IMG/VR virus record: IMGVR_UViG_3300028025_000533
Span: 1-24,077 of that record
From: a virus
Length of the DNA stretch: 24,077 bases
Reading direction: 5' to 3' (one strand)
This document shows positions 5,636 to 17,918 of the stretch, in pieces (the stretch's first letter is position 1; each line of letters begins with the position of its first letter). Under the pieces are notes generated by a model that made no database searches, had not been told where the DNA came from, and was given only the letters and a program-made list of their open reading frames with translations. Both the position numbers and the translations under genes were made by a program.

Positions 5636-7636
5636 TTATATCCCCCAGATTTTGTTTGAGACGCCTTTGGCAAATGTCGGGTCGCTAGCTAACCCAGATA
5701 TCAGTGAGGCAAACGGGTTGGTTGTTGCCGCACGGCCCATCGATATTTCAGCAGCCGTTCCTGCGCCCGCCAAACCGAGTCGTCCAGCGTTCGCGCCCGC
5801 AGTAGCCACCTGGTTCGCCAAACCGGTGCTCATCGTGAACGGCTGCTGCCCTAAGTTTTCAAGACCTGTGACCTGACCCATTGCGCTAGTGTAAGGCGCA
5901 TACGCTGCTTGTTGGCCTGCGTAGTAGTTGCCCATCGTCTGAGCACCTGTGCCGAGCAGACCTGCGCCGAACGTAACGTTTTGTTGACCTGCTTGCTGGG
6001 CCTGCGCAGCCAATAATGCCTCTTGCTGTGCGCGGGCGTTGAACAGCGCCTGCAACTCAGGTGTTGTTGCACCAAAAGAGCCGCCTTGTGCCACAGACAG
6101 ACCTGCGCGGCCTTGCTGCTGCAATCTGTTTTGTAAGTTGGCCAGCTCAAGCTCACGCCCAGGCTGCAAAAGCGCCATCTGTTGGTTGATGTAGTTCTGC
6201 GCGACGTCTTGGGGCGACTGCGCGAGGTACTGGTTACCCAAGTTGAACAGGCTCTGCGCGCCAGTCTGCAAAGGCGCAAACGCCTGCTGCGCACCTTCAG
6301 CTTGCGTGATGCCTTTACCTGCCAACGCTGCAAAGCGGTCCTGCGCGGCTTTCGCCTCGGGGGTGAGTTGGTAGCCAGCGCTGGTCATCTGGCCTGTCAC
6401 GGGGTCGTACTGGAACTGCGACGTGCCAAAGCGCGTCGTCATGCCGATTGGGCGGAACTGAGCACCCTGCACCGCCTGTCGCGTAGCAGCGTTGATGCTG
6501 GTAACGCCCGCTTGGGCAGCAGCGCGGTCTTCTTCCGATTGCAGCAAACCAGCAACGGTATTGAGGCCACCGGAGAGCAGCCCGCCAGTGCCAGTGCCAG
6601 CACCAGCACCAGCACCAGTGCCAGCAGCGGTGCCAGCAGCGGTGCCAGCAGCATTTATCCCGGTAGTCAGCGCGCCCGTACCTAAGTTTGCGCCCAAAGA
6701 GCCGCCTACGCCGCCGACTGTGGCCGCAGTACCTGCGCCAGTCCCCAGCAGCCCGGTGCCCAGCTCAGAGCCGGTCAAGATGCCCGTGCCGGTCAACGCT
6801 CCAGTGCCTGTCGTGCCCAACAGACCTGTGCCAAGTGTGGAGCCGGACAGGACGCCTGTGCCGGTCAATCCAGCCAGACCAGCAGCGCCAGCCCCTGCGC
6901 CCAGCAGACCTGTGCCAAGCGTAGAGCCGGACAAAATACCCGTGCCGGTCAAGCCCGCGCCTGCGTTGATGCCAAGACCGGCTGCGCCTGTGGTGCTGAG
7001 GCCAAGGCCCCCTGCACCAGCGGAAATGCCAGACCCTAGACCCATACCGGTTACACCAGCACCAGCACCAGCACCAGCACCAGCACCAGCACCAGCACCA
7101 GCACCAGCGCCTAGCAAAGACGACGCACCATACGCAGCAGCCGCAAGCAGCGCAGCCGGTTTAAGCGTGTCCTCGCGGAAGCTCATCCAGCTACTCTGAC
7201 GGTTGCTTGTGTAAGGCAACGCAGTGCCGTCAGCAGCAAAATCAATTTGATAGTCAATATCCAAGCCACGGGTGCCTCGGCCCAAAAGTTCTGGGCGTGG
7301 TAAAGGTTCACCAGTTGTTTTATTGATTAAGGTTATGTTGGTTTGTAAGCCACCTTCTTCACCTAAATCTAAATCAGTTCGGGTTTGGCCCAACTGGCTC
7401 AAGGAACCAATGCCGTTCTCGGCCAAGCGCAGCGCAAAGTCCGCAGCCGCAGCTTGGGGTGATGCCGTGTTGCCTGCGTACCAAGCCGGTGCCGTACCAG
7501 CGTTTTGTTGGGCCAAGATTTCGCGGTAGATGTTTTGCGCGTTCGGCCCCATAACGCCGTCGAGCTTGCCCAGCTCTTTCATGTAATCAGCGTCGGGCGA
7601 TTTCAGAGCCTTAACGTACTTATCGTAATCCCACAT
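5636..7636 (-). CDS. Gly/Ala-repeat virion protein, putative ejection or tail protein
   Basis: A 666-residue protein with a strong AAGGAG ribosome binding site. The N-terminal domain (about 1-165, MWDYDKYVKALKSPDADYMK...) is ordinary and globular. Residues about 165-365 are an extraordinary low-complexity Gly/Ala/Thr zone, with a pure Gly-Ala alternation at 176-194 and three copies of an 18-residue unit (LTGTGILSGSTLGTGLLG) at 229, 257 and 281. The C-terminal part (about 366-666) is helical and very Gln/Ala-rich (ELANLQNRLQQQGRAGL). Such a zone could be a flexible or membrane-active linker. The operon position suggests a structural, perhaps ejected, protein. No homology-based function can be assigned from reading alone. 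Confidence 0.6.
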   Translation of the reverse strand: MWDYDKYVKALKSPDADYMKELGKLDGVMGPNAQNIYREILAQQNAGTAPAWYAGNTASPQAAAADFALRLAENGIGSLSQLGQTRTDLDLGEEGGLQTNITLINKTTGEPLPRPELLGRGTRGLDIDYQIDFAADGTALPYTSNRQSSWMSFREDTLKPAALLAAAAYGASSLLGAGAGAGAGAGAGAGAGAGVTGMGLGSGISAGAGGLGLSTTGAAGLGINAGAGLTGTGILSGSTLGTGLLGAGAGAAGLAGLTGTGVLSGSTLGTGLLGTTGTGALTGTGILTGSELGTGLLGTGAGTAATVGGVGGSLGANLGTGALTTGINAAGTAAGTAAGTGAGAGAGTGTGGLLSGGLNTVAGLLQSEEDRAAAQAGVTSINAATRQAVQGAQFRPIGMTTRFGTSQFQYDPVTGQMTSAGYQLTPEAKAAQDRFAALAGKGITQAEGAQQAFAPLQTGAQSLFNLGNQYLAQSPQDVAQNYINQQMALLQPGRELELANLQNRLQQQGRAGLSVAQGGSFGATTPELQALFNARAQQEALLAAQAQQAGQQNVTFGAGLLGTGAQTMGNYYAGQQAAYAPYTSAMGQVTGLENLGQQPFTMSTGLANQVATAGANAGRLGLAGAGTAAEISMGRAATTNPFASLISGLASDPTFAKGVSNKIWGI
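6743..6952 (-). repeat. Three spaced copies of a 54-bp coding repeat
   Basis: Copies at 6899-6952, 6815-6868 and 6743-6796 each encode a variant of LTGTGILSGSTLGTGLLG (the second has V for I; the third has T for S and E for T). They are separated by 30 and 18 bases that encode short Gly/Ala/Thr linkers. DNA identity between copies is high but not complete, which implies duplication followed by divergence under protein-level constraint. Confidence 0.85.
7055..7108 (-). repeat. Perfect hexanucleotide tandem repeat, nine copies
   Basis: The + strand reads ACCAGC nine times without interruption. On the coding strand this is (GCTGGT)n, giving an alternating Gly-Ala run at about residues 176-194 of the 666-residue virion protein. 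Each unit is two codons, so gain or loss of a unit keeps the frame. A second, imperfect array of related units (CCAGTG/CCAGCA/CCAGCAGCGGTG) lies at about 6587-6650 of the same gene. Confidence 0.95.
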
Positions 7637-7710: not shown

Positions 7711-8492
7711 CACACGTCGCCTGTGTTCGTTGAGGGAAATGCTCTGTTATACCCCCAAATAATTCTTACCGCGCCGCTGCCCGCAGGGTAAGTTCCACTC
7801 GAACCGCCAGCGCCGCCACCATAAGTAGAACCAGAGCCGCCAGAGCCAGCAGTCCCACTTGGATTTGCATTGGAAGTTAAGCCACCAGTGCCGCTAGACC
7901 CTTGGCCTAAAATTCCTACGCCGCCGCCAGAGCCACCCACGTAAGTGCCGCCAGGAACAGACGCTGTCCCGCCGCCGCCAGAGCCACCGGTTCCATTGTC
8001 GCCGTTAGTTCCTAAGCCTCGACCAGCGCCGCCAGCGCCAGCATATCCACCAGCCCCGCCGCCGCCAGACCTGACAGACGATGCACCACCAACTGCAGCG
8101 CCATTGCCGCCAGAGTAACCAGTACCAGCCACCACAGCCCCGCCGATACCTCCGCTATATGGAGTTGAAGATGGTTTACCACCCTCAGCCTCTACTGGCG
8201 CAGACCCCAAAGAGCCGCCAAACGCCGAATTAGAACCCGCTGTACCAACAATAACTGTGTAAGAATTTCCAGGCGTCACTGCGTAGTTGTTGATGTAAGC
8301 CAAAGCGCCGCCACCACCGCCAGCGATACCTTCTGAACTCCAGTTAACAGCCGACCCACCAGAACCTACGCACACAACAGAAACCGAACTTACACCTGTT
8401 GGACAAGTCCATGAGTAAGTTCCAGCAGTTGTAAATGCCTCCTGCCCGCCTGGCAAAGAGCCAACTAAAAATGAGTTACGAGCAGCGAACAT
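7710..8492 (-). CDS. Glycine-rich tail protein, candidate adhesin
   Basis: I start it at 8492 (MFAARNSFLVGS), where the ATG shares one base with the TAA of the upstream fibre gene; the longer in-frame version is unlikely. The 260-residue product opens with a small beta domain (EAFTTAGTYSWTCPTGVSSV, then VVCVGSGG) and continues as a Gly-rich body with GGGGGALAYI and a VTPGNSYTVIVGTAG strand, the hallmark pattern of phage glycine-rich tail domains. Residues about 100-240 are dominated by Gly, Ser, Ala and Thr. It ends in GAVRIIWGYNRAFPSTN, a C-terminal signature I recall from phage glycine-rich tail proteins. Polyglycine sandwich folds of this kind form the receptor-binding part of T-even-like gp38 adhesins. 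Together with its place after a fibre gene, that makes receptor binding likely but unproven. Confidence 0.7.
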   Translation of the reverse strand: MFAARNSFLVGSLPGGQEAFTTAGTYSWTCPTGVSSVSVVCVGSGGSAVNWSSEGIAGGGGGALAYINNYAVTPGNSYTVIVGTAGSNSAFGGSLGSAPVEAEGGKPSSTPYSGGIGGAVVAGTGYSGGNGAAVGGASSVRSGGGGAGGYAGAGGAGRGLGTNGDNGTGGSGGGGTASVPGGTYVGGSGGGVGILGQGSSGTGGLTSNANPSGTAGSGGSGSTYGGGAGGSSGTYPAGSGAVRIIWGYNRAFPSTNTGDV

Positions 8493-9070
8493 TACGGTGT
8501 GTATCCTTGTGCAACAGAACCATACCAATTAGTGCCATCACTGACAAATGAAAAGATGTCCATCTTTCCAGCAGTTGGCGTTACGGTAGGGGCGGACGCA
8601 GTCGTATATTTAACGCCGGTGAATGTTGCGGTGCCGTTGCCCGTAGACGCCGCTTGTTTTAGCAACAAGATAAACGACTTACCCGCAGTAGCAGTAGGCA
8701 TCGTAAATGTGCAAGCAGTGGAAGCAGTGAGCGTCGCTGTTTGAACAGTCCCGCTTGTCAACACTAACGTGTGTGCGCTTGTTACAGTACCGATTGCAAC
8801 AACACTCTCAACGTAATTCGTGACCGTTGGGTTTGTTAGGGTTTTGTTTGTCAGGGTTTGCGTATCTGAAGTGCCAACAACATCCCCTGTAGGCGCGGTC
8901 TTCAACGCAAAAGCAGCTAGATCAGCGTCATAGTCTTGCTTCGATGCGATAGCCGTAGAAATGTTGTTGAACTCAGTATCGATCTCAGTACCCTTGACAA
9001 TCTTCGCGGGGTTACCTGAACTGAGGTTGTCTTTACTGGCAAAGTTAGTGCTCTTTGTGTAGTCACTCAT
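8492..9070 (-). CDS. Short tail fibre / tail appendage protein (192 aa)
   Basis: The start MSDYTKSTNFASKDNLSSGN, followed by KIVKGTEIDTEFNNI, is a familiar opening of podoviral tail fibre proteins and probably mediates attachment to the tail hub. The middle carries TLTNKTLTNPTV, a fibre-shaft motif in many phages. The C-terminus is a compact Thr/Ala-rich beta domain (GKSFILLLKQAAS... DGTNWYGSVAQ). The length is short for a complete receptor-binding fibre, so it may act as an adaptor for the glycine-rich protein that follows by a TAATG overlap. Its own start overlaps the nozzle gene stop as ATGA. Confidence 0.75.
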   Translation of the reverse strand: MSDYTKSTNFASKDNLSSGNPAKIVKGTEIDTEFNNISTAIASKQDYDADLAAFALKTAPTGDVVGTSDTQTLTNKTLTNPTVTNYVESVVAIGTVTSAHTLVLTSGTVQTATLTASTACTFTMPTATAGKSFILLLKQAASTGNGTATFTGVKYTTASAPTVTPTAGKMDIFSFVSDGTNWYGSVAQGYTP

Positions 9071-10626
9071 GATAATTTCCCATTTTTCGATTGGATTTCA
9101 ATCTTTTGAATAGACAGTTGAACGCCGTTAATGTCGGACTCATAGCCTGTCTGAACAACCTTACCTGTGCCAGTAGCAGATGCTTTTAACGTGTTCAAAG
9201 CAACACCATCAGAATACTGAGCCACTACGGTTGCGTTAGCGCCGTACTCAGCGATGCCGTACTCAGCCACGCCTTGAACCGGAATAGTTGCAGTTGAACT
9301 CAGATAGTTAGTCTTGAAGTCAAAACCCCACTTAAAAATAACCGATTGATTCGTGCCGCCGATGACAACAACCGAAATCTTCTTCAAGATAGATATTTGA
9401 TCCGCGTTGCCAAGGTCTGCATGGTTGGTGTAGTACTGCATCCGATACACACTCGTGTAGTCGTTATAGCCCGTATACTGACCAACGTAGCCATTCTTGC
9501 CAATGTAGATAGCGCCGCTTCGCAAAGACGCTAACGCTGTGGGCGCGATGGAGTCCCAAGTAGTTACGCGGGAAGACCCATCCTGCAAAATAACTTTGGT
9601 GTCAAAACAGTAGACCGACTGAGTGACGGGCATCGTCAACAGATAAAAGCCTTCTCTCTCCGAGTAAACAGATTTAATGTTTGCCAAGTTTTGAGAAGCA
9701 ACATCGCTCATCAAGTCGTTACGGACGTTTTTGGACAGATCGCGCTCTGGCGCTGACTTTTCTTGGATTGTGCGCATCAGCGAGCGCACGCCCGAGTTGG
9801 ACAAGAAGATCACATCCGAGCTTGTGGTCTGCACGCTGTCGCGGGCCAAGCAGCCGATGCCGCCCACTGTGTCCGACAAAGACATCGTGGAGGGCGTCGT
9901 CGCACCTTGGTAGACCAGAATCTGGCGCTTGCCGAAGATGAACAGGAACCCGTTGTGCGCGGCCAAGCCTTGCACCTCATCCGCGCCGTTTGGCCACACT
10001 CTTGTAGTGTCTAGGGTGCCTGTGGTGCCGCCTGACCAAACGTGGCCTGCAATCAGGTCTGAAAAGGACACCGTAACCTTGTCGGTGCTGGAGCTGGCCA
10101 CCCACAGGCGACCGTAAGCCGCCAGCGCAATGTTGGCGCTGGGCACCGTGCCGACATAGCCTGACTTCTCGCTTACGCGGCGATAAGTCGTCGTGCTGAC
10201 GGCGGGGTCGTAGATCAGCGGGTCGTGGCCCGCCTGGAAGAAGTAAGTGATGCCGTTGAGCGAAACAACCGACCAGTTGCTAGCGGTGATGGTGGGCGCA
10301 GTAGCCCCGCCCCCGTAGGTCAGCTCCACAACAGCGTTGGCGGTGCCCAGTTTGAACAGCTTGTTGTTACCGGCAAACAGAACGGTCAGGGTGCCGTTTG
10401 TCTGCGCCAGCTCATGGATAACGCCCACATCGTTAGCACCAAGGTCACCAGATGACGAGTTGACCCGTGTCCAGCCCTTACGTGCGCCGATGCGACCGTA
10501 CTGGTCAATCACGCAATTAATCGCCACCAAAGCAAAGCCAGACGCAAGATCAAGAGGAGAGTCTTGCGTATTCAGCCCGAAAAAACCGGGGGCTGAGATG
10601 CTGGCGGTTTGGATCAACTGGCTCAT
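9067..10626 (-). CDS. Tail nozzle / hub protein (519 aa)
   Basis: After MSQLIQTASISAPGFFGLNT comes a patch that resembles the N-terminus of podoviral nozzle proteins (QDSPLDLASGF, then NCVIDQYGRIGARKGW): a list of virion-proximal residues leading into a 'GR.GARKGW' stretch. The rest is beta-rich with repeated blades (TLTVLFAGNNKLFKLG; GITYFFQAG; NGFLFIFGKRQILVYQG), which fits the beta-propeller core of T7 gp12 or P22 gp10-type proteins. It directly follows the adaptor gene with an ATGA overlap, the order expected for head-to-tail connector proteins. The family assignment is from pattern and synteny, not from a search. Confidence 0.7.
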   Translation of the reverse strand: MSQLIQTASISAPGFFGLNTQDSPLDLASGFALVAINCVIDQYGRIGARKGWTRVNSSSGDLGANDVGVIHELAQTNGTLTVLFAGNNKLFKLGTANAVVELTYGGGATAPTITASNWSVVSLNGITYFFQAGHDPLIYDPAVSTTTYRRVSEKSGYVGTVPSANIALAAYGRLWVASSSTDKVTVSFSDLIAGHVWSGGTTGTLDTTRVWPNGADEVQGLAAHNGFLFIFGKRQILVYQGATTPSTMSLSDTVGGIGCLARDSVQTTSSDVIFLSNSGVRSLMRTIQEKSAPERDLSKNVRNDLMSDVASQNLANIKSVYSEREGFYLLTMPVTQSVYCFDTKVILQDGSSRVTTWDSIAPTALASLRSGAIYIGKNGYVGQYTGYNDYTSVYRMQYYTNHADLGNADQISILKKISVVVIGGTNQSVIFKWGFDFKTNYLSSTATIPVQGVAEYGIAEYGANATVVAQYSDGVALNTLKASATGTGKVVQTGYESDINGVQLSIQKIEIQSKNGKLS

Positions 10627-11270
10627 ATGGCTACAAACTCCTGCGCCTCGGGGTAGCGGGTGCCTTCGAGCGCAATGTAATCTGCCAACATGGACCGGTA
10701 CAGTTGGAACGCCTCGGACGAGTTCAAACCGCCGTCCTCACCACGCTCAACCAAAGCGCGGGAGTAGGCATTTTGGGTCACCAACACGTCTGGCACCTTG
10801 ACAAGCGTGCTGTCGGACGACAGTGTCGCCTGGGGCACAGTCAACGAGAAAGGCAGGACGTAGACGTTATCTGGACGTGCGTACAGCAGCACCTTGGTGT
10901 CGCCGTTGTTGTCTACGCCGTCAAATGAATAGTATTCTGGAATACCGCTAATTGCGGGCACCAAGTTCTGGAAGCGGTTCATCTGCACAAAGCTGATGTT
11001 TTGCATTCCGACATTTGATGTGACGTTGATCACATCCATGACTTGAAACTTCTGGCCAGCCCCCGTCAAAGAGTATAAGTAAGTGCCTGGCGTGGTCGTG
11101 ATGGTGACAGTCGTACCCAGCACGTTCCATGCGTAGGAGTCCTCAATCTGGCGTTTGGCATCGTTGACAAACTTGCCGATCAGATTGGAATATGAGGTCT
11201 CGCTGACTGTGGAGACTTGTTCCTCGCGCAAGCGCACTAGAACATCATTGACAAGTTCGAGGTAGGTCAT
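10623..11270 (-). CDS. Head-to-tail adaptor (tail tubular A-like)
   Basis: A 215-residue protein opening with MTYLELVNDVLVRLREEQVS, then SNLIGKFVNDAKRQIEDSYAW. This N-terminal helical pattern is characteristic of adaptor/gatekeeper proteins of short-tailed phages (T7 gp11-like, P22 gp4-like), which bind beneath the portal. A beta-rich middle follows (TTVTITTTPGTYLYSLTG), and the C-terminal helices include NAYSRALVERGEDGG and YRSMLADYIALEG. It lies immediately upstream of the nozzle gene with start-stop overlaps on both sides, matching the assembly order portal-adaptor-nozzle. Confidence 0.8.
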   Translation of the reverse strand: MTYLELVNDVLVRLREEQVSTVSETSYSNLIGKFVNDAKRQIEDSYAWNVLGTTVTITTTPGTYLYSLTGAGQKFQVMDVINVTSNVGMQNISFVQMNRFQNLVPAISGIPEYYSFDGVDNNGDTKVLLYARPDNVYVLPFSLTVPQATLSSDSTLVKVPDVLVTQNAYSRALVERGEDGGLNSSEAFQLYRSMLADYIALEGTRYPEAQEFVAI

Positions 11271-11602
11271 TGGCGTGTCAATCCGATTTGTTCAAATGTG
11301 TTGATAGATGACATTGCGGAAGCCGCTTCAGCTGTAATTCTTACTTGATCACCTTCTTCAAGCACAACATACGCGCCGCCGTCAAACCTTAAATATTGTG
11401 TTGTTGCTAGCTGATACGCATCAATCACTGTGACTTCAGTGTTTGCGCTAGCGTCATACCACCAAACGCTAACCGTTTTATTGTTGCCTGTGTGGTTTGA
11501 GATATAGCAGAGATTCCAAAGTGCGTAGTAACCAGTCGGCACTGTATAGACGGTTGTCTTAGTGCCAGCTGGTAAGTTTACGCCGACAGATATGGGTCTC
11601 AT
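11267..11602 (-). CDS. Small beta-rich virion-associated protein, unknown (111 aa)
   Basis: Predicted almost entirely beta-strand (TKTTVYTVPTGYYALWNLCY, KTVSVWWYDAS, VVLEEGDQVRITAEAAS), with no signal peptide or membrane segment. The 'TVYTVP.GYYAL.N..ISN' and 'LEEGDQVR' phrases resemble small jelly-roll or beta-sandwich proteins that decorate phage heads or tails. It sits between the basic micro-genes and the adaptor and overlaps both neighbours by ATGA. A head-tail or decoration role is plausible from fold and position; no family is assigned. Confidence 0.65.
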   Translation of the reverse strand: MRPISVGVNLPAGTKTTVYTVPTGYYALWNLCYISNHTGNNKTVSVWWYDASANTEVTVIDAYQLATTQYLRFDGGAYVVLEEGDQVRITAEAASAMSSINTFEQIGLTRQ

Positions 11603-11892
11603 TTCTTGTTCCTGGCTGAGATCGCCTTGGCTTTCGCCTTAGCGTCCTCTTTGGACGTTGCGCCCCAAGCCTTCAGAGACAAGAGTAGCCGGGTCGGCTT
11701 ACCGTCTTTCATCTCAGGCCCAGGCATATTGCCCATGCGTGCTAAGAAGGAGGCCCTACGAGGGTTGTCGCCCGACTTCACGGGGGCTTTGAGATCGCCC
11801 CCGGTTGACGCATTATAAGACGCCCGGCCCTTGGCGTTCAAGCCCCCAGATGCAGATTTGCCTTCTTTGCGCTGCCAGGCGGGCGTCTTCAT
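11599..11892 (-). CDS. Small basic protein, PAWQRKEG/GGLNAKGR type (97 aa)
   Basis: It begins MKTPAWQRKEGKSASGGLNA, continues KGRASYNASTGGDLKAPVKS, and has a second block NPRRASFLARMGNMPGPEMK and a Lys/Ala-rich tail. I recall a domain of unknown function in phages and bacteria with the PAWQRKEGK..SGGLN.KGR signature, probably DUF6321; the exact number should be checked. It is strongly basic and lacks membrane segments or cysteines, so nucleic-acid or capsid-interior contact is conceivable. It overlaps the 50-residue gene upstream and the 111-residue gene downstream by ATGA. Confidence 0.75.
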   Translation of the reverse strand: MKTPAWQRKEGKSASGGLNAKGRASYNASTGGDLKAPVKSGDNPRRASFLARMGNMPGPEMKDGKPTRLLLSLKAWGATSKEDAKAKAKAISARNKK

Positions 11893-12041
11893 TTCTTCTT
11901 CGCCTTTCCAGCTTGCGACAGCGCAATGGCCACAGCTTGCTTTTGGGACTTGACAACAGGACCACCCTTGCCGGAGTTCAGCTCACCCGCTTTAAACTCG
12001 CGCATGACCTTGCTGATCTTCTTTTCGGCTTTGGTTTTCAT
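11889..12041 (-). CDS. Small basic protein, DUF6496-like (50 aa)
   Basis: The 51-codon frame starts with MKTKAEKKISKVMREFKAGE and then has LNSGKGGPVVKSQKQAVAIA. The combination 'KVMREFK.G.L.SG..G..VKS.KQA.AIAL..AGK' is the pattern of a small family I know as DUF6496, found in bacteria and phages and of unknown function. About one third of the residues are Lys or Arg. The start overlaps the previous stop (TGA sharing bases with ATG) and the end overlaps the next gene. Family membership is fairly secure from the motif; function is unknown. Confidence 0.75.
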   Translation of the reverse strand: MKTKAEKKISKVMREFKAGELNSGKGGPVVKSQKQAVAIALSQAGKAKKK

Positions 12042-12181
12042 TTCTTTTTCGCTTTATTTGTCGCGGTCCGCTGACCACGGGCTGGCATAGGCTTGGCCTT
12101 GCTAACGGCGATCATCACCGTCATAGGCATGGCCTTCTTGGCCTTCTTGGAATCAGTCATTTTGGGTGCTTTGCCGTACAT
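12038..12181 (-). CDS. Very basic micro-protein, unknown (47 aa)
   Basis: It starts at an ATG preceded by AAGGAG, which is built into the stop codon of the gene before it (TAAGGAG), with a 6-base spacer. The product (MYGKAPKMTDSKKAKKAMPM, then TVMIAVSKAKPMPARG, ending in KAKKK) is Lys/Met/Ala-rich, with no hydrophobic segment long enough for a membrane helix. It overlaps the next gene by four bases. Small MYG..-type Lys-rich proteins occur near capsid genes in related phages as far as I recall, but no role is known. Coding status rests on the strong RBS and overlaps. Confidence 0.65.
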   Translation of the reverse strand: MYGKAPKMTDSKKAKKAMPMTVMIAVSKAKPMPARGQRTATNKAKKK

Positions 12182-12191
12182 GATGTGCTCC

Positions 12192-12404
12192 TTAGATTGT
12201 TTCAACAGCCTTACGTGGCCGACCCATGCGTTTGACGGGCGTTGGGGCCGTCATTGGCAGCGCTTTGCCAGCCTCTTGGGCTTGCGTTTGCTCACCTAGC
12301 GCATCAACCAAAACGTAGCCTGCGTGGCCGCGCATCGAGTCGATGTCATGCTGCTGCGTGAACGTCACCGTATTACCACTTTGCAAGCATTTGTATGTAG
12401 CCAT
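12192..12404 (-). CDS. Small protein with C-terminal AT-hook-like motif (70 aa)
   Basis: The N-terminal half is a compact beta-like unit (MATYKCLQSGNTVTFTQQHD, then SMRGHAGYVLV). The C-terminal tail is basic and contains KRMGRPRKAVETI. The core GRPRK matches the Gly-Arg-Pro core of AT-hook motifs, which bind the minor groove of AT-rich DNA. Only one copy is present, so binding would be weak alone. Position in the capsid-to-tail interval suggests a small virion component or an assembly factor that touches packaged DNA, which is inference. The RBS is weak (GAAAG). Confidence 0.65.
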   Translation of the reverse strand: MATYKCLQSGNTVTFTQQHDIDSMRGHAGYVLVDALGEQTQAQEAGKALPMTAPTPVKRMGRPRKAVETI

Positions 12405-14598: not shown

Positions 14599-14826
14599 TT
14601 ATGAGTTGGCTTTGCGCTCGGCGTTCAACTTCTCAGTGTGCTTGTGCTCAAACCGTCCGTAAGCGGATGGAAAGTGCCCAGACCAACCTTCAAGGTTGAA
14701 TTTCGGTGCGCTTACGACGCGGCGGGCGAACCCCCCGCATCCACACAGCACGCTGGTAGTCTCATAACCAACCAGTGCCTCTGTGCGCTGCCCGCAATCG
14801 CAGGCAAATTCATACATTCTTTTCAT
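14599..14826 (-). CDS. Small zinc-ribbon protein, FmdB-like (75 aa)
   Basis: The N-terminus MKRMYEFACDCGQRTEALVG, followed by VLCGCGGFARRV, has two CxC-type knuckles (C9/C11 and C28/C30), the layout of small FmdB-type zinc ribbons, which usually start 'M..Y.F.C..CG'. The tail contains APKFNLEGWSGHFPSAYGRF and a basic end. GAGGA precedes the ATG at 14826 by 5-6 bases, which supports it over the second in-frame ATG at 14817. Function is unknown; these ribbons are found beside capsid genes in many phages. It overlaps the upstream gene by 17 bases. The 52 bases between it and the scaffold gene hold only the scaffold RBS and no clear promoter. Confidence 0.7.
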   Translation of the reverse strand: MKRMYEFACDCGQRTEALVGYETTSVLCGCGGFARRVVSAPKFNLEGWSGHFPSAYGRFEHKHTEKLNAERKANS

Positions 14827-15049
14827 TCAAATCCTCATACGCTCGTTCGCTGACCCCTTTCAGGGTTTTCAGCCAAGTCAGGATAGAAATCTCACCTTTG
14901 CGAAATTGTAGACTTTTTTCATCCGCAATGGTAGAGACATTATTCATCGCCTCCAACATTACATCTACGTCTTCCATTAAGTCGAGCCAACCTTGCTGGG
15001 AGAATAGGTCAAACCGATCTTCGTAGTATTTTTGCAGTTCTGGTGTCAT
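14810..15049 (-). CDS. Small acidic helical protein, unknown function (79 aa)
   Basis: The product is acidic and wholly helical by eye (MTPELQKYYEDRFDLFSQQG, then WLDLMEDVDVMLEAMNN, later ILTWLKTLKGVSERAYEDLN), with no cysteines or membrane segment. The opening 'YYEDR..LF...GW..L..D' seems a recurrent phage theme that I recall from genes near scaffold or lysis modules, with no function attached. It overlaps the zinc-ribbon gene by 17 bases, so the two are probably coupled, and follows the endolysin gene by 24 bases. It could belong to either the head-assembly or the lysis module. Confidence 0.65.
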   Translation of the reverse strand: MTPELQKYYEDRFDLFSQQGWLDLMEDVDVMLEAMNNVSTIADEKSLQFRKGEISILTWLKTLKGVSERAYEDLNEKNV

Positions 15050-15073: not shown

Positions 15074-15700
15074 TCAGGCAAGGACAGAGCCGTCGATGAC
15101 TGCCAAAGCCTGGTTAGTATGCAAGATGCGATCATCCAGACCAATCGTACCGCCGTTGATCTTTCGTGTAAGTGCCAAGTTGTTGCTGGTTTCGGCCAGC
15201 CCGTTGAGCTTTTGCGTGTCCCAGAACCAGCCAGCCGTCAGGGCGGCGTACTGCGGCGTAGCCACTAGGTCAGGCTCCATGATGAAGTCCACGCCCAATG
15301 CTTGGCCAGCATGGTGGTAATTCGCAGCGCCAGTTAGCTGCAAAATTCCGCGCCCGCGAAAACGAAAGCCGTCACCCGATGCCTCATCCCGGTTGTTCAT
15401 GCGGTTGCCGTAGATGCGGTTGGCGATCTTCTTGGGCTGGCGCTCGTAGGCTGCAGCCTCTTCAGGCGTAAAGCCCCATGAACGCTTGGGCGTGCGCGGG
15501 AACAATTTCAAAAGCGTAGCAGCGCGGTAGTTCAGGTTTTCTTCCAGTACCCGGAAGTTGGCGCTCTCATGGCCGCATTGGCCAATGAATGCCGCCTGCT
15601 GGCGCGGCGTCAGAATGTTAAAGCGCTCAAACGTGGCATTCAATGGGTCAGCCCACACAGGGTCAATGTGCAGCTTTTTAAGTTGCTCAGGGGTTACCAT
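15074..15700 (-). CDS. Endolysin, glycoside hydrolase family 19
   Basis: A 208-residue protein with GAGGAG seven bases before the ATG. The GH19 chitinase/lysozyme fold is clear: GQCGHESANF at residues 40-49 holds the catalytic glutamate (E45). FRGRGILQLTGAANY at about 114-128 is the second signature, NRIYGNRMNNRDEASGDG at about 94-111 is a conserved lead-in, and YAALTAGWFW at about 151-160 lies in the substrate-facing helix. It has no signal peptide or N-terminal anchor, so it accumulates in the cytoplasm and needs a holin to reach peptidoglycan. Length is normal for phage GH19 endolysins without a cell-wall-binding domain. It overlaps the Rz-like gene by 14 bases. Confidence 0.92.
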   Translation of the reverse strand: MVTPEQLKKLHIDPVWADPLNATFERFNILTPRQQAAFIGQCGHESANFRVLEENLNYRAATLLKLFPRTPKRSWGFTPEEAAAYERQPKKIANRIYGNRMNNRDEASGDGFRFRGRGILQLTGAANYHHAGQALGVDFIMEPDLVATPQYAALTAGWFWDTQKLNGLAETSNNLALTRKINGGTIGLDDRILHTNQALAVIDGSVLA

Positions 15701-16190
15701 TCACGATTCTCCTCATTTGGTCGTACGCGTCAATGCAGGCGTTGAGCTGGTTGATGGCCTTGTCGCCTTCGGCTGCAATCTCGGCAATCAATCTCAGGGT
15801 TTCTCGCTCGTCACCAGCAGCTTGGTCAGCCGGTCGGTCAGGTTCGCTTCTCGCTTGGTTGCTATCTCCAGCGGCAGGGGCGGGACTTGGGCTGGCTTGT
15901 GGACAACTGGCGGTGGGGAAGCGCACCCTGCCAGCACGAATGGCAGCAGTAAGATCAGTTTGCTTTTTGTTAACAACATCATTTGCCTTTCGTAGTTCAG
16001 CATCTTTGTCGGCCACAGCCTTGGCCATCTCTTGCTCTTTGGCTCGGGCCTCTTCATTTTTCTTGGCAATCTCGGCCTGCATTTCAACATCGCGGTCGCC
16101 CCAGCCACTGTTGTAGCCGTACTTGTAGATTCCAAAGATGGCAAGCAGCGCCAGCAGCACTGCGATGCCTGTGCGTTGTATGGAGGTCAT
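15687..16190 (-). CDS. Rz: Inner-membrane spanin (Rz-like)
   Basis: A 167-residue protein with an N-terminal signal anchor (residues about 6-24, RTGIAVLLALLAIFGIYKYG). A long charged periplasmic coiled coil follows (EMQAEIAKKNEEARAKEQEM, then AVADKDAELRKANDVVNKKQ), then a Pro/Ser linker and C-terminal helices. This is the standard architecture of Rz. The start overlaps the stop of the membrane gene upstream as ATGA, and a complete Rz1 is nested in the +1 frame. Two cysteines (one in the PTASCPQAS linker, one near the C-terminus in LNACIDAY) could support covalent dimers, as in lambda Rz. With the nested lipoprotein it would fuse inner and outer membranes in the last step of lysis. Confidence 0.88.
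   Translation of the reverse strand: MTSIQRTGIAVLLALLAIFGIYKYGYNSGWGDRDVEMQAEIAKKNEEARAKEQEMAKAVADKDAELRKANDVVNKKQTDLTAAIRAGRVRFPTASCPQASPSPAPAAGDSNQARSEPDRPADQAAGDERETLRLIAEIAAEGDKAINQLNACIDAYDQMRRIVNGNP
15794..15979 (-). CDS. Rz1: Outer-membrane spanin lipoprotein (Rz1-like), nested in Rz
   Basis: Lying entirely inside Rz in the +1 frame (the lambda arrangement), it has the signal MLLTKSKLILLLPFVLAGCA with an LAGC lipobox, processed before the cysteine. The mature part is 43 residues, opens CASPPPVVHKPAQ and ends LTKLLVTSEKP; it is Pro-rich and then helical, as expected for o-spanins. Of the two adjacent ATG codons (15982 and 15979), the second has the better spacing (6 bases) from AAAGG. 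Asp is absent at position +2 (Ala instead), so the lipoprotein should be sorted to the outer membrane. Longer in-frame upstream starts lack a signal at the N-terminus and are rejected. Confidence 0.88.
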   Translation of the reverse strand: MLLTKSKLILLLPFVLAGCASPPPVVHKPAQVPPLPLEIATKREANLTDRLTKLLVTSEKP

Positions 16191-16723
16191 GCGGCCTCTT
16201 TCCGAGCCGCTGCAATCTCTGCACGGTCTTCGTCAGTCTCTTGGTGCTCTGGCGGCGTTGTCGGTGGTGGGCCAGGCGTCCATGACTCATCCAGTTCTGG
16301 ATTCTTAAAGCCCATCCAGTTGAAGTCGGGCATGGCGTTGGAGGGCTGGGGCGTGTAGGCGTACTGAGGAGCATGGTTGTGGTGCAGGGGTGCATACTGC
16401 TGGCCATACTGCGGTCCAGAGGGTGGTGATGACCGCATGGCGTTGACCGCACCAGAAACAGCACGCTTGCCCACGATGCCGCCAATGCCGCCCACGATCA
16501 GCAGCACGATGTCGTTCAGCATCTTGGTGTAAGCCTGGTCAATGGGGGCCATCGACTTGATCGGCTGAGTCACAAAGGTGACCGAGTACAGCAGGGCAAA
16601 GACGATGCCAGCCAGGATCAGCGTGATCATGATGACCACAAAGCCCCAGACCCTGACCTCGATGGCCTCGGCGCTTAACCGATCTTCATGGCTTGGCGTC
16701 TGCGGGCTGTTTAGTTTGATCAA
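16187..16723 (-). CDS. Two-pass membrane protein, possible holin, TTG start (178 aa)
   Basis: There is no usable ATG before the first membrane helix. A TTG at 16723 has GGAG with a seven-base spacer, so I take it as the start. Residues about 26-50 (VWGFVVIMITLILAGIVFAL, then LYSVTFV) and 70-90 (DIVLLIVGGIGGIVGKRA) are predicted membrane helices, the second rich in Gly. The C-terminal half is soluble and rich in Pro, Tyr, His and Gln (GPQYGQQYAPLHHNH), ending in a charged helix. It directly precedes the spanin and endolysin genes. Two helices fit a class II holin, but the 85-residue tail is unusual, so 'holin' is only a candidate. It overlaps the lipoprotein gene by 38 bases. Confidence 0.65.
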   Translation of the reverse strand: MIKLNSPQTPSHEDRLSAEAIEVRVWGFVVIMITLILAGIVFALLYSVTFVTQPIKSMAPIDQAYTKMLNDIVLLIVGGIGGIVGKRAVSGAVNAMRSSPPSGPQYGQQYAPLHHNHAPQYAYTPQPSNAMPDFNWMGFKNPELDESWTPGPPPTTPPEHQETDEDRAEIAAARKEAA

Positions 16724-16898
16724 TTTGCTTCTCCAAAATTGGGGCCACTAAATACTCAGGGCATTGCTGGGTGAACAGACACTTGGGCTTTTGGCAGTCA
16801 GGCTTGTGAAAGTTATCGGGATTCTGGCACGGATACCTGTATCGGTCTTCACAGCCGACCAGCGCCAGCATGGCCACGATCAATGCAATGATTTTCAT
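16686..16898 (-). CDS. Cysteine-rich small lipoprotein (70 aa)
   Basis: The signal MKIIALIVAMLALVGCEDRY has an LVGC lipobox, so the mature lipoprotein starts at C16. It carries four further cysteines in DRYRYPCQNP, KPDCQKPKCLFTQQC, which suggests disulphides in the periplasm. Glu at +2 does not meet the strict Asp inner-membrane retention rule, so outer membrane is the likelier location. It is distinct from the nested Rz1. I recall similar 'CEDRYRYPCQ' lipoproteins beside lysis genes in other podoviruses, function unknown. It might act in lysis or as a superinfection-blocking lipoprotein. ATGA overlap with the gene upstream. Confidence 0.75.
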   Translation of the reverse strand: MKIIALIVAMLALVGCEDRYRYPCQNPDNFHKPDCQKPKCLFTQQCPEYLVAPILEKQIDQTKQPADAKP

Positions 16899-17053
16899 AT
16901 GCCTAGCTTCTCCAAGAATGCCTCAATGACTCGGTTGGCAATGTCTGGGGGTAAGAACACCAGCACCTTAAAGCCGACCCAGATAAAGGCCAGGTAACAG
17001 TTGATTTTGAGCCACTTGTCAAAACCATCTTTGACCTCTTTCCACTTGTCCAT
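16895..17053 (-). CDS. Small single-pass membrane protein (52 aa)
   Basis: I start at the ATG at 17053, one base after the previous stop; the longer frame uses TTG inside the upstream gene. The product (MDKWKEVKDGFDKWLKINCY, then LAFIWVGFKVLVFLPPDIA) has a basic amphipathic N-terminus, one hydrophobic segment at about residues 19-36 and a charged C-terminal helix. It is part of the coupled membrane cassette before the spanins. Size and topology would fit an antiholin or a pinholin-like helper, but no family is recognisable. Confidence 0.6.
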   Translation of the reverse strand: MDKWKEVKDGFDKWLKINCYLAFIWVGFKVLVFLPPDIANRVIEAFLEKLGI

Positions 17054-17054
17054 G

Positions 17055-17546
17055 TCATGACCCGCACCCGTAATCAGAACAGTAAAAGACAATTTCCAGA
17101 ATGCCCCAGAAGATGATGATTGAAATCACTGAGATCAGCGTGATTGCAATGGTCAACTCGATCACCTCTTTGCGCCTCTTGGCAGCGTTGAGTTCTCTTG
17201 CAGCCTCTCTGCGCTGTTCTTCGCGGTCTTCTTTGTTCATCTCCATCACCCGCTGCTGGATGGAGTTCCAGACATCCATGTTGTTGGTGGAGAAAAACAG
17301 ACCCTTAAGCTGCTCCTCGAAATCCTTCTGAGCCTTCAGCGCCAGTTCAATCTCGATGGCCTTGCCCATGTTGGACCCACCAGCCTTCTTGGCTTGGCTG
17401 GCTGCTTTGGTGGCCGTGTGCTTGGCATCAAAGTATTTGCCGATCAGCGGGCCAAGACTGGAGACATCATCGACCGTCTTGGATGCTTTCTTGATTAGAT
17501 TTACCGCTGCACTGACAGCGGCCATAGCACTCACAGGATCGATCAC
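17055..17546 (-). CDS. Lysis-region protein with C-terminal membrane anchor (163 aa), GTG start
   Basis: The GTG at 17546 is preceded by AAAGGGG with a five-base spacer and overlaps the previous stop as GTGA, so it is the likely start; longer frames are not supported. It begins VIDPVSAMAAVSAAVNLIKK (first residue Met in the cell), then has helical soluble segments (FDAKHTATKAASQAKKAGGS, QKDFEEQLKGLFFS, EDREEQRREAARELNAAKRR), and ends with one hydrophobic helix (LTIAITLISVISIIIFWGIL) and a Cys-containing tail. I recall phage proteins starting '.DPVSA...A..A...IKK' in the same neighbourhood of marine and freshwater podoviruses, of unknown function. A tail-anchored helical protein could assist holin action or be a virion protein. 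Confidence 0.65.
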   Translation of the reverse strand: MIDPVSAMAAVSAAVNLIKKASKTVDDVSSLGPLIGKYFDAKHTATKAASQAKKAGGSNMGKAIEIELALKAQKDFEEQLKGLFFSTNNMDVWNSIQQRVMEMNKEDREEQRREAARELNAAKRRKEVIELTIAITLISVISIIIFWGILEIVFYCSDYGCGS

Positions 17547-17626
17547 GACAGCCCCTTTAATACAAACAAGGCGACCTGAAGGAGCCACCAGACAGCAATT
17601 ATGCTGATGGCAATTTTAAGTCTCAT
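17543..17626 (-). CDS. 27-residue membrane micro-protein
   Basis: The ATG overlaps the previous stop (TCATGA) and the TGA overlaps the next start (TCGTGA, giving GTG). The peptide begins MRLKIAISIIAVWWLLQVAL and ends FVLKGLS: two basic residues, then about 20 hydrophobic ones, long enough for one transmembrane helix. The last codons also carry the AAAGGGG ribosome binding site of the following gene. It is below usual gene-calling limits, but the exact start-stop linkage on both sides and the membrane character argue for real translation. Confidence 0.6.
   Translation of the reverse strand: MRLKIAISIIAVWWLLQVALFVLKGLS
17552..17558 (-). promoter_or_regulatory. Ribosome binding site AAAGGGG deciding a GTG start
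   Basis: AAAGGGG lies five bases before the GTG at 17546, inside the coding region of the 27-residue micro-gene. It fixes GTG as the start of the 163-residue gene and means that ribosomes finishing the micro-gene end on top of the next start. Confidence 0.65.
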
Positions 17627-17715
17627 GACAGCACCATGATGAAGACCCTGGCGCACCAAATGACCATGCCAATCAGAAGGGCTGCTGCAATAAAGCTAAC
17701 AGCCCAGTCCTTCAT
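17623..17715 (-). CDS. 30-residue membrane micro-protein
   Basis: The ATG sits in the stop of the 68-residue gene (TTATGA), and the TGA overlaps the start of the 27-residue gene (TCATGA). The peptide begins MKDWAVSFIAAALLIGMVIW and ends VFIMVLS, a single hydrophobic helix with only one Lys, one Asp and one Arg. Codon use and hydrophobicity are unlike a random frame. With its neighbour it forms a pair of tandem single-helix micro-proteins in a row of membrane genes before the endolysin. Confidence 0.6.
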   Translation of the reverse strand: MKDWAVSFIAAALLIGMVIWCARVFIMVLS

Positions 17716-17918
17716 AACCCAAATATTTTCTTGACCATCTCGGCTGCGACACCTGGTCCAAGTAAGACAGCGGCAATCACAGCGTAAAGCAGATACTCGA
17801 TCTTGGTCATCCGCTTTGAGCCGGACTCAAATGATTTCTGGATGGCCTCATACCGATGGGCGCACACTTGCTCATGGGTTGTCAATCTGGCCTCCGTTGC
17901 GTCAATCTGCTCTGACAT
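17712..17918 (-). CDS. Small membrane protein, XhlA/holin-like (68 aa)
   Basis: GAGG precedes the ATG by about seven bases. The N-terminal part (MSEQIDATEARLTTHEQVCA, then HRYEAIQKSFESGSKRM) is an amphipathic, charged helix with heptad spacing. The C-terminal part has one hydrophobic segment (YLLYAVIAAVLLGPGVAAEM) and a short basic end. This order of coiled coil then single membrane helix is that of XhlA-type proteins linked with phage lysis. It is the first gene of the membrane cassette and is coupled to two micro-proteins by TTATGA and TCATGA. Holin or holin-partner function is inferred from topology and place. Confidence 0.65.
   Translation of the reverse strand: MSEQIDATEARLTTHEQVCAHRYEAIQKSFESGSKRMTKIEYLLYAVIAAVLLGPGVAAEMVKKIFGL

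Follow-up and report, generated by a model that had tools for sequence, protein, structure and literature searches.

To our knowledge, the genes that time lysis are mostly uncharacterised except in a few model phages. Lysis cassettes with small transmembrane genes are already known. In phage N4, the two-helix lysis regulator gp62 lies beside the tail-anchored pinholin gp63 (PMC12642591). Phage BSPM4 encodes ORF52, a 64-aa single-helix protein which modulates the holin and lysis timing (PMC11657625). Among actinobacteriophages, Gordonia phages have multi-gene holin-like cassettes in which small transmembrane genes, single-helix ones included, overlap in runs close to the endolysin, and the members of these cassettes were proposed to act together (PMC9671378). 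By analogy, the three systems can be taken as precedents for the logic of a holin-tuning accessory. What is new in the gene pair described here, p30 and p27, is its size, together with a conserved coupling and an occurrence across different lysis modules.

Gene content of the locus

The window is a 24,077-base IMG/VR virus record, with its genes on the minus strand. The conserved gene order is tail fibre, DUF7936, p68, p30, p27, p163, p52, lipo70, p178, Rz and GH19 endolysin, and from p68 to GH19 it is fixed in dozens of contigs. The features of the chain and the adjoining lysis genes are:

17712..17918, minus strand: p68, 68 aa, head of the coupled chain, SD-like site present
17623..17715, minus strand: p30, 30-aa single-helix membrane microprotein, ATG overlapping the p68 stop (TTATGA), no SD site
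17543..17626, minus strand: p27, 27-aa single-helix membrane microprotein, ATG overlapping the p30 stop (TCATGA), no SD site
17055..17546, minus strand: p163, 163 aa, GTG start overlapping the p27 stop (TCGTGA), SD-like site present
16895..17053, minus strand: p52, membrane protein of 52 aa with one helix, conserved and following p163 in the cassette
16686..16898, minus strand: lipo70, 70-aa Cys-rich lipoprotein with lipobox LVGC (CEDRYRYPCQNPDNF...), conserved and found in most such cassettes
16187..16723, minus strand: p178, two-helix membrane protein with a Pro-rich tail, start codon uncertain (TTG), phrog_25359 (uncharacterised)
15687..16190, minus strand: Rz-like inner-membrane spanin, phrog_1327 (E=8.8e-14)
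15797..15976 (end approximate), minus strand: Rz1-like Pro-rich outer-membrane lipoprotein, nested in Rz in another frame, lipobox LAGC, start uncertain
15074..15700, minus strand: GH19 endolysin, phrog_181 (E=6.2e-70) and PF00182 (E=1.1e-11)

The initial annotation had described genes of 68, 30 and 27 codons in front of a GTG-started gene, joined by three exact junctions, and all of them are present on the minus strand at the coordinates given here. Each junction (TTATGA, TCATGA and TCGTGA for p68/p30, p30/p27 and p27/p163, respectively) is a 4-base stop/start overlap. The two middle genes were correctly seen as single hydrophobic helices, with best 19-residue Kyte-Doolittle means of 2.43 for p30 and 2.52 for p27. 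The consensus of p27 is MRxKIAIGIVVVWWLLQVALVVVRGL.

The head of the chain, p68, has a hydrophilic N-terminal part, a conserved THExVCAxRY motif and a single C-terminal helix (best 19-residue Kyte-Doolittle mean 1.92), and it matches the uncharacterised PHROG phrog_37133 (E=2.8e-4). Its identification as an XhlA/hemolysin was rejected, with no Pfam match and a weak match to a PHROG 'hemolysin' (E=0.009) in one of 44 relatives. The p163 protein is helical and mostly hydrophilic, with a C-terminal membrane helix; it matches the uncharacterised PHROG phrog_32327, and its predicted structure, a low-confidence model, resembles only uncharacterised phage proteins. Neither p30 nor p27 matched Pfam or PHROG at E values up to 1, known holin families included. 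Profile searches of the PDB gave no useful match, and tRNA, Rfam and promoter/terminator scans found nothing exceeding chance.

Downstream, p178 directly precedes the spanin genes. Judged by its two predicted helices and its position, it is probably the best candidate for the main holin; it did not match known holins, and its low-confidence structure model resembles nothing. The nested Rz1 is present in 51 of 52 distinct Rz relatives. Since it is already there, lipo70 is unlikely to be the o-spanin. The GH19 endolysin (N-terminus MVTPEQLKKLHIDPVWADPL) has no SAR or signal-anchor helix, its maximum 19-residue hydropathy being 0.63, so a large-hole holin is expected. The lysis setting proposed in the initial annotation is borne out by this endolysin and the nested Rz/Rz1 spanin pair beside p30 and p27.

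Elsewhere in the window, two small genes of 79 and 75 aa with a 17-base overlap (14599-15049, minus strand) lie between the endolysin and a scaffold-like gene, and the 75-aa protein has a zinc-ribbon-like CxC...CxCG pattern. A 666-aa protein (5636-7636, minus strand) contains a long low-complexity stretch of Gly/Ala/Thr and matched nothing in PHROG; by position it is probably structural.

Comparison with described lysis cassettes

Like the module here, the N4 cassette combines an endolysin and spanins with a two-helix membrane protein and a tail-anchored protein whose N-terminal part is helical. In layout only, p68 and p163 resemble gp63, and p178 resembles gp62. Comparison of gp62 and gp63 with the p68, p163 and p178 profiles gave no significant match, and homology was therefore rejected. 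No 30- or 27-aa gene is annotated in the N4 cassette region, and N4 uses a SAR endolysin, whereas the GH19 endolysin here is without such a helix. BSPM4 ORF52, likened to p30 and p27 by description only, is twice their size and has a soluble C-terminal part. The Gordonia cassettes belong to other hosts and have other sequences, and their overlapping run encodes proteins with four, four, four and one helix. In contrast, p30 and p27 are only 30 and 27 residues long and coupled, and the module here carries Rz/Rz1 spanins.

Association with endolysins

In 98 of the 103 distinct p30 loci that extended far enough, an endolysin gene followed no more than 2.5 kb downstream (60 GH19, 29 GH24 and 9 GH108), which indicates that p30 travels with lysis modules. 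In one locus (L118), p30 is followed immediately by a GH108 endolysin and GTA_holin_3TM (PF11351), a three-helix holin distinct from p30 and p27. The corresponding figure was three of 17 for p68 without p30 and p163, and 31 of 37 for p163 without p30. Because p163 adjoins endolysins also when p30 is missing, p30 is perhaps a mere passenger of a larger membrane-gene block. With holins, p30 and p27 share a membrane helix and a lysis-cassette location, and they likely belong to the lysis module, as judged from gene neighbourhood.

Conservation and selection of p30 and p27

Loci were gathered from IMG/VR phage contigs with p163, p68, p30 and p27 as queries, giving at least 302 related stretches for p30 and 48 loci for p27. 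Stops or frameshifts were seen in none of the 107 distinct p30 copies and none of the 34 distinct p27 copies, with reading frames extended to their stops; the tblastn-based sampling may miss decayed copies. One p27 copy has a 4-codon in-frame deletion. Broken micro-frames between intact neighbours, the pattern named beforehand as speaking against the pair, were not found, and clean absence was common in more distant relatives.

In 56 p30 and 23 p27 sequences, pN/pS was 0.45 and 0.24, respectively, in each case lower than in any of 200 simulations of neutral evolution (minima 0.71 and 0.50). Codon positions 1/2/3 diverged by 0.28/0.17/0.53 in p30 and, read in its own phase, by 0.28/0.16/0.43 in p27 (38 distinct p30-p27 regions without gaps). 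The codon phase of substitutions flips exactly at the p30-p27 overlap (permutation p <1e-5 and 2e-5); the permutation assumes exchangeable sites and the sequences are related, so the p-values are indicative, and the flip itself is independent of them. Strongly conserved p27 residues are K4, A6, I9, WW13-14, Q17 and AL19-20. Codon phase and pN/pS rule out a non-coding reading. Both frames are almost certainly real genes, and their substitution patterns are those of purifying selection.

Genes of fewer than 30 codons are often missed in annotation. The view that both micro-genes are too small for gene callers held for p27, of which no annotated relative was seen, and not for p30, which has an annotated though unnamed 30-aa relative (UOF80813.1 in MW202710.1, the sole annotated phage record with one). 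A host search for p30 relatives in GTDB genomes found none.

The conserved frames, and not the overlaps alone, are what goes beyond chance at this locus. Three couplings in a row had been considered improbable by chance, an argument that fails here: exact 4-base overlaps occur at 11 of the 29 neighbouring junctions in the window (small genes in two apparent gaps included), and six are consecutive in a run of mostly structural genes (12205..12038, 12041..11889, 11892..11599, 11602..11267, 11270..10623, 10626..9067 and 9070..8492, minus strand). Because such overlaps are common in this window, the run at p68-p163 was not used as evidence.

Gain, loss and variants

Among 68 distinct loci selected by p163, 29 have both genes, eight only p30, one only p27 and 30 neither. 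Where checked, the neighbours in loci without p30 and p27 are joined directly, and in some relatives p68 leads straight to p163; the absences look clean. The two genes are not gained and lost alike: p27 is almost always accompanied by p30, and p30 is often without p27 (77 of 121 distinct p30 loci). Since both are absent from the lysis cassettes of many related phages, they appear to be dispensable for lysis there.

In two loci (L289 and L290), the p27 frame extends into a 157-aa protein, MRVKIAIGIVVLWWLLQAASIAMA-QDTT..., with a signal-peptidase-like site (SIAMA-QDTT), and the p27 sequence looks like a signal peptide. Together with the mean N-terminal charge of p27 (~ +1.9), this extension suggests an N-in orientation. 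The charge pattern of p30 is ambiguous to C-in, and its orientation is likewise ambiguous.

One 46 kb contig, IMGVR_UViG_3300042516_001195, carries two different p30-p27-p163 cassettes (L013/L268 and L014/L274) ~39.2 kb apart. The spacing is near the size of related contigs; probably the assembly of a circular genome ran on beyond its starting point and took in strain variation. Five further contigs (L087, L090, L092, L108 and L126) have a near-identical p68 (85-97%) without an adjacent p30, and on each of them a p27 or p163 relative from the p30-p27-p163 block is located elsewhere.

Translational coupling

Overlaps of the ATGA type couple translation via termination-reinitiation (PMC6728339, PMC10666635). 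Among the distinct p30-p27 pairs, 37 of 38 overlap by exactly four bases (-4). The p68-p30 spacing is -4 in 53 of 73 cases and otherwise +1 or +2, and the p27-p163 spacing is variable (-4, -1 and others). Mean anti-SD energy at the p30 and p27 starts was -2.5, compared with -2.1 for random sequence; it was -4.9 for p68 and -5.6 for p163, and p68, p163, Rz and GH19 ranged from -4.8 to -5.8. The p30-p27 pair therefore combines a conserved stop/start overlap with a downstream gene that has no SD of its own, as a coupled pair does. Because p30 and p27 start without an SD and their neighbours with one, coupled translation of the two is likely. The coupling of the micro-frames put forward in the initial annotation is in this way upheld, as a prediction from sequence, by the conserved overlap and the SD-less starts.

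Possible roles of p30 and p27

The best overall explanation, which we hold tentatively, is that p30 and p27 form a coupled inner-membrane pair encoded among the late lysis genes of freshwater phages, acting as a holin-modulating accessory. Ribosomes ending p68 would re-initiate on p30 and then on p27, and the output of both would be proportional to p68 translation. Both helices would be inserted in the inner membrane, packed against a holin or against the tail-anchored p68 or p163. The partner holin would here probably be the two-helix p178, and elsewhere the GTA-type three-helix holin. Such packing could delay or sharpen hole formation, shifting lysis timing. The pair would then be an accessory of the antiholin or co-holin type, and not the hole releasing the GH19 endolysin. 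As a role for p30 and p27, holin modulation is plausible, if still short of probable.

A rather unlikely alternative is that the two are membrane morons, for example superinfection-exclusion or host-membrane-modulating peptides unconnected with lysis timing. They are indeed patchy and dispensable among close relatives, small, single-helix and without a known family, and accessory genes are often located between tail and lysis genes. However, in the 98 of 103 loci p30 has an endolysin for a neighbour, drawn from three unrelated families, and p30 and p27 scarcely vary in their order and overlap, a constancy greater than a free moron would show.

The initial annotation favoured a heteromeric pore or depolarising, pinholin-like unit with p30 and p27 in fixed ratio, which is distinctly unlikely. 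Linked synthesis is implied by the conserved overlap and SD-less starts, and a split hairpin is conceivable with p27 N-in and p30 ambiguous to C-in. Yet p27 is missing from the majority of p30 loci (77/121), and a fixed-ratio pore as a general rule does not survive this. Moreover, the GH19 endolysin has no SAR-like helix and would not be released by pinholes. Other hole-former candidates are present (p178, and GTA_holin_3TM in a relative), which makes an accessory more likely than a pore. A further reading, in which p30 and p27 would be a split two-helix hairpin of opposite topologies forming one holin-controlling unit, with p27 added later to a p30-only regulator, appears improbable.

It is very improbable that the two belong to the tail-side gene block as membrane peptides located in the virion or associated with ejection. 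The chain does follow directly after the tail-fibre and DUF7936 genes, but p30 keeps its endolysin neighbour when the upstream gene switches (fiber, DUF7936 or p68), and neither protein matches a virion family. That p30 and p27 are functionless spacers relaying ribosomes from p68 to p163, as SD-less starts in a tightly coupled chain might suggest, can practically be dismissed given the amino-acid-level selection, the strongly conserved p27 residues, the SD-like site of p163 itself and the relatives joining p68 straight to p163; in its strong, relay-only form it is refuted by codon phase and pN/pS.

The holin-modulating accessory thus stays our preferred reading, and the layout of p30 and p27 makes a lysis role testable with small constructs. 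The two genes represent a widespread, selected membrane pair of 30 and 27 residues in uncultured freshwater phages. Should they prove to tune holins, they would rank with the smallest known lysis regulators, and the way they come and go as modules next to three types of endolysin would reveal how lysis modules are put together in phages.
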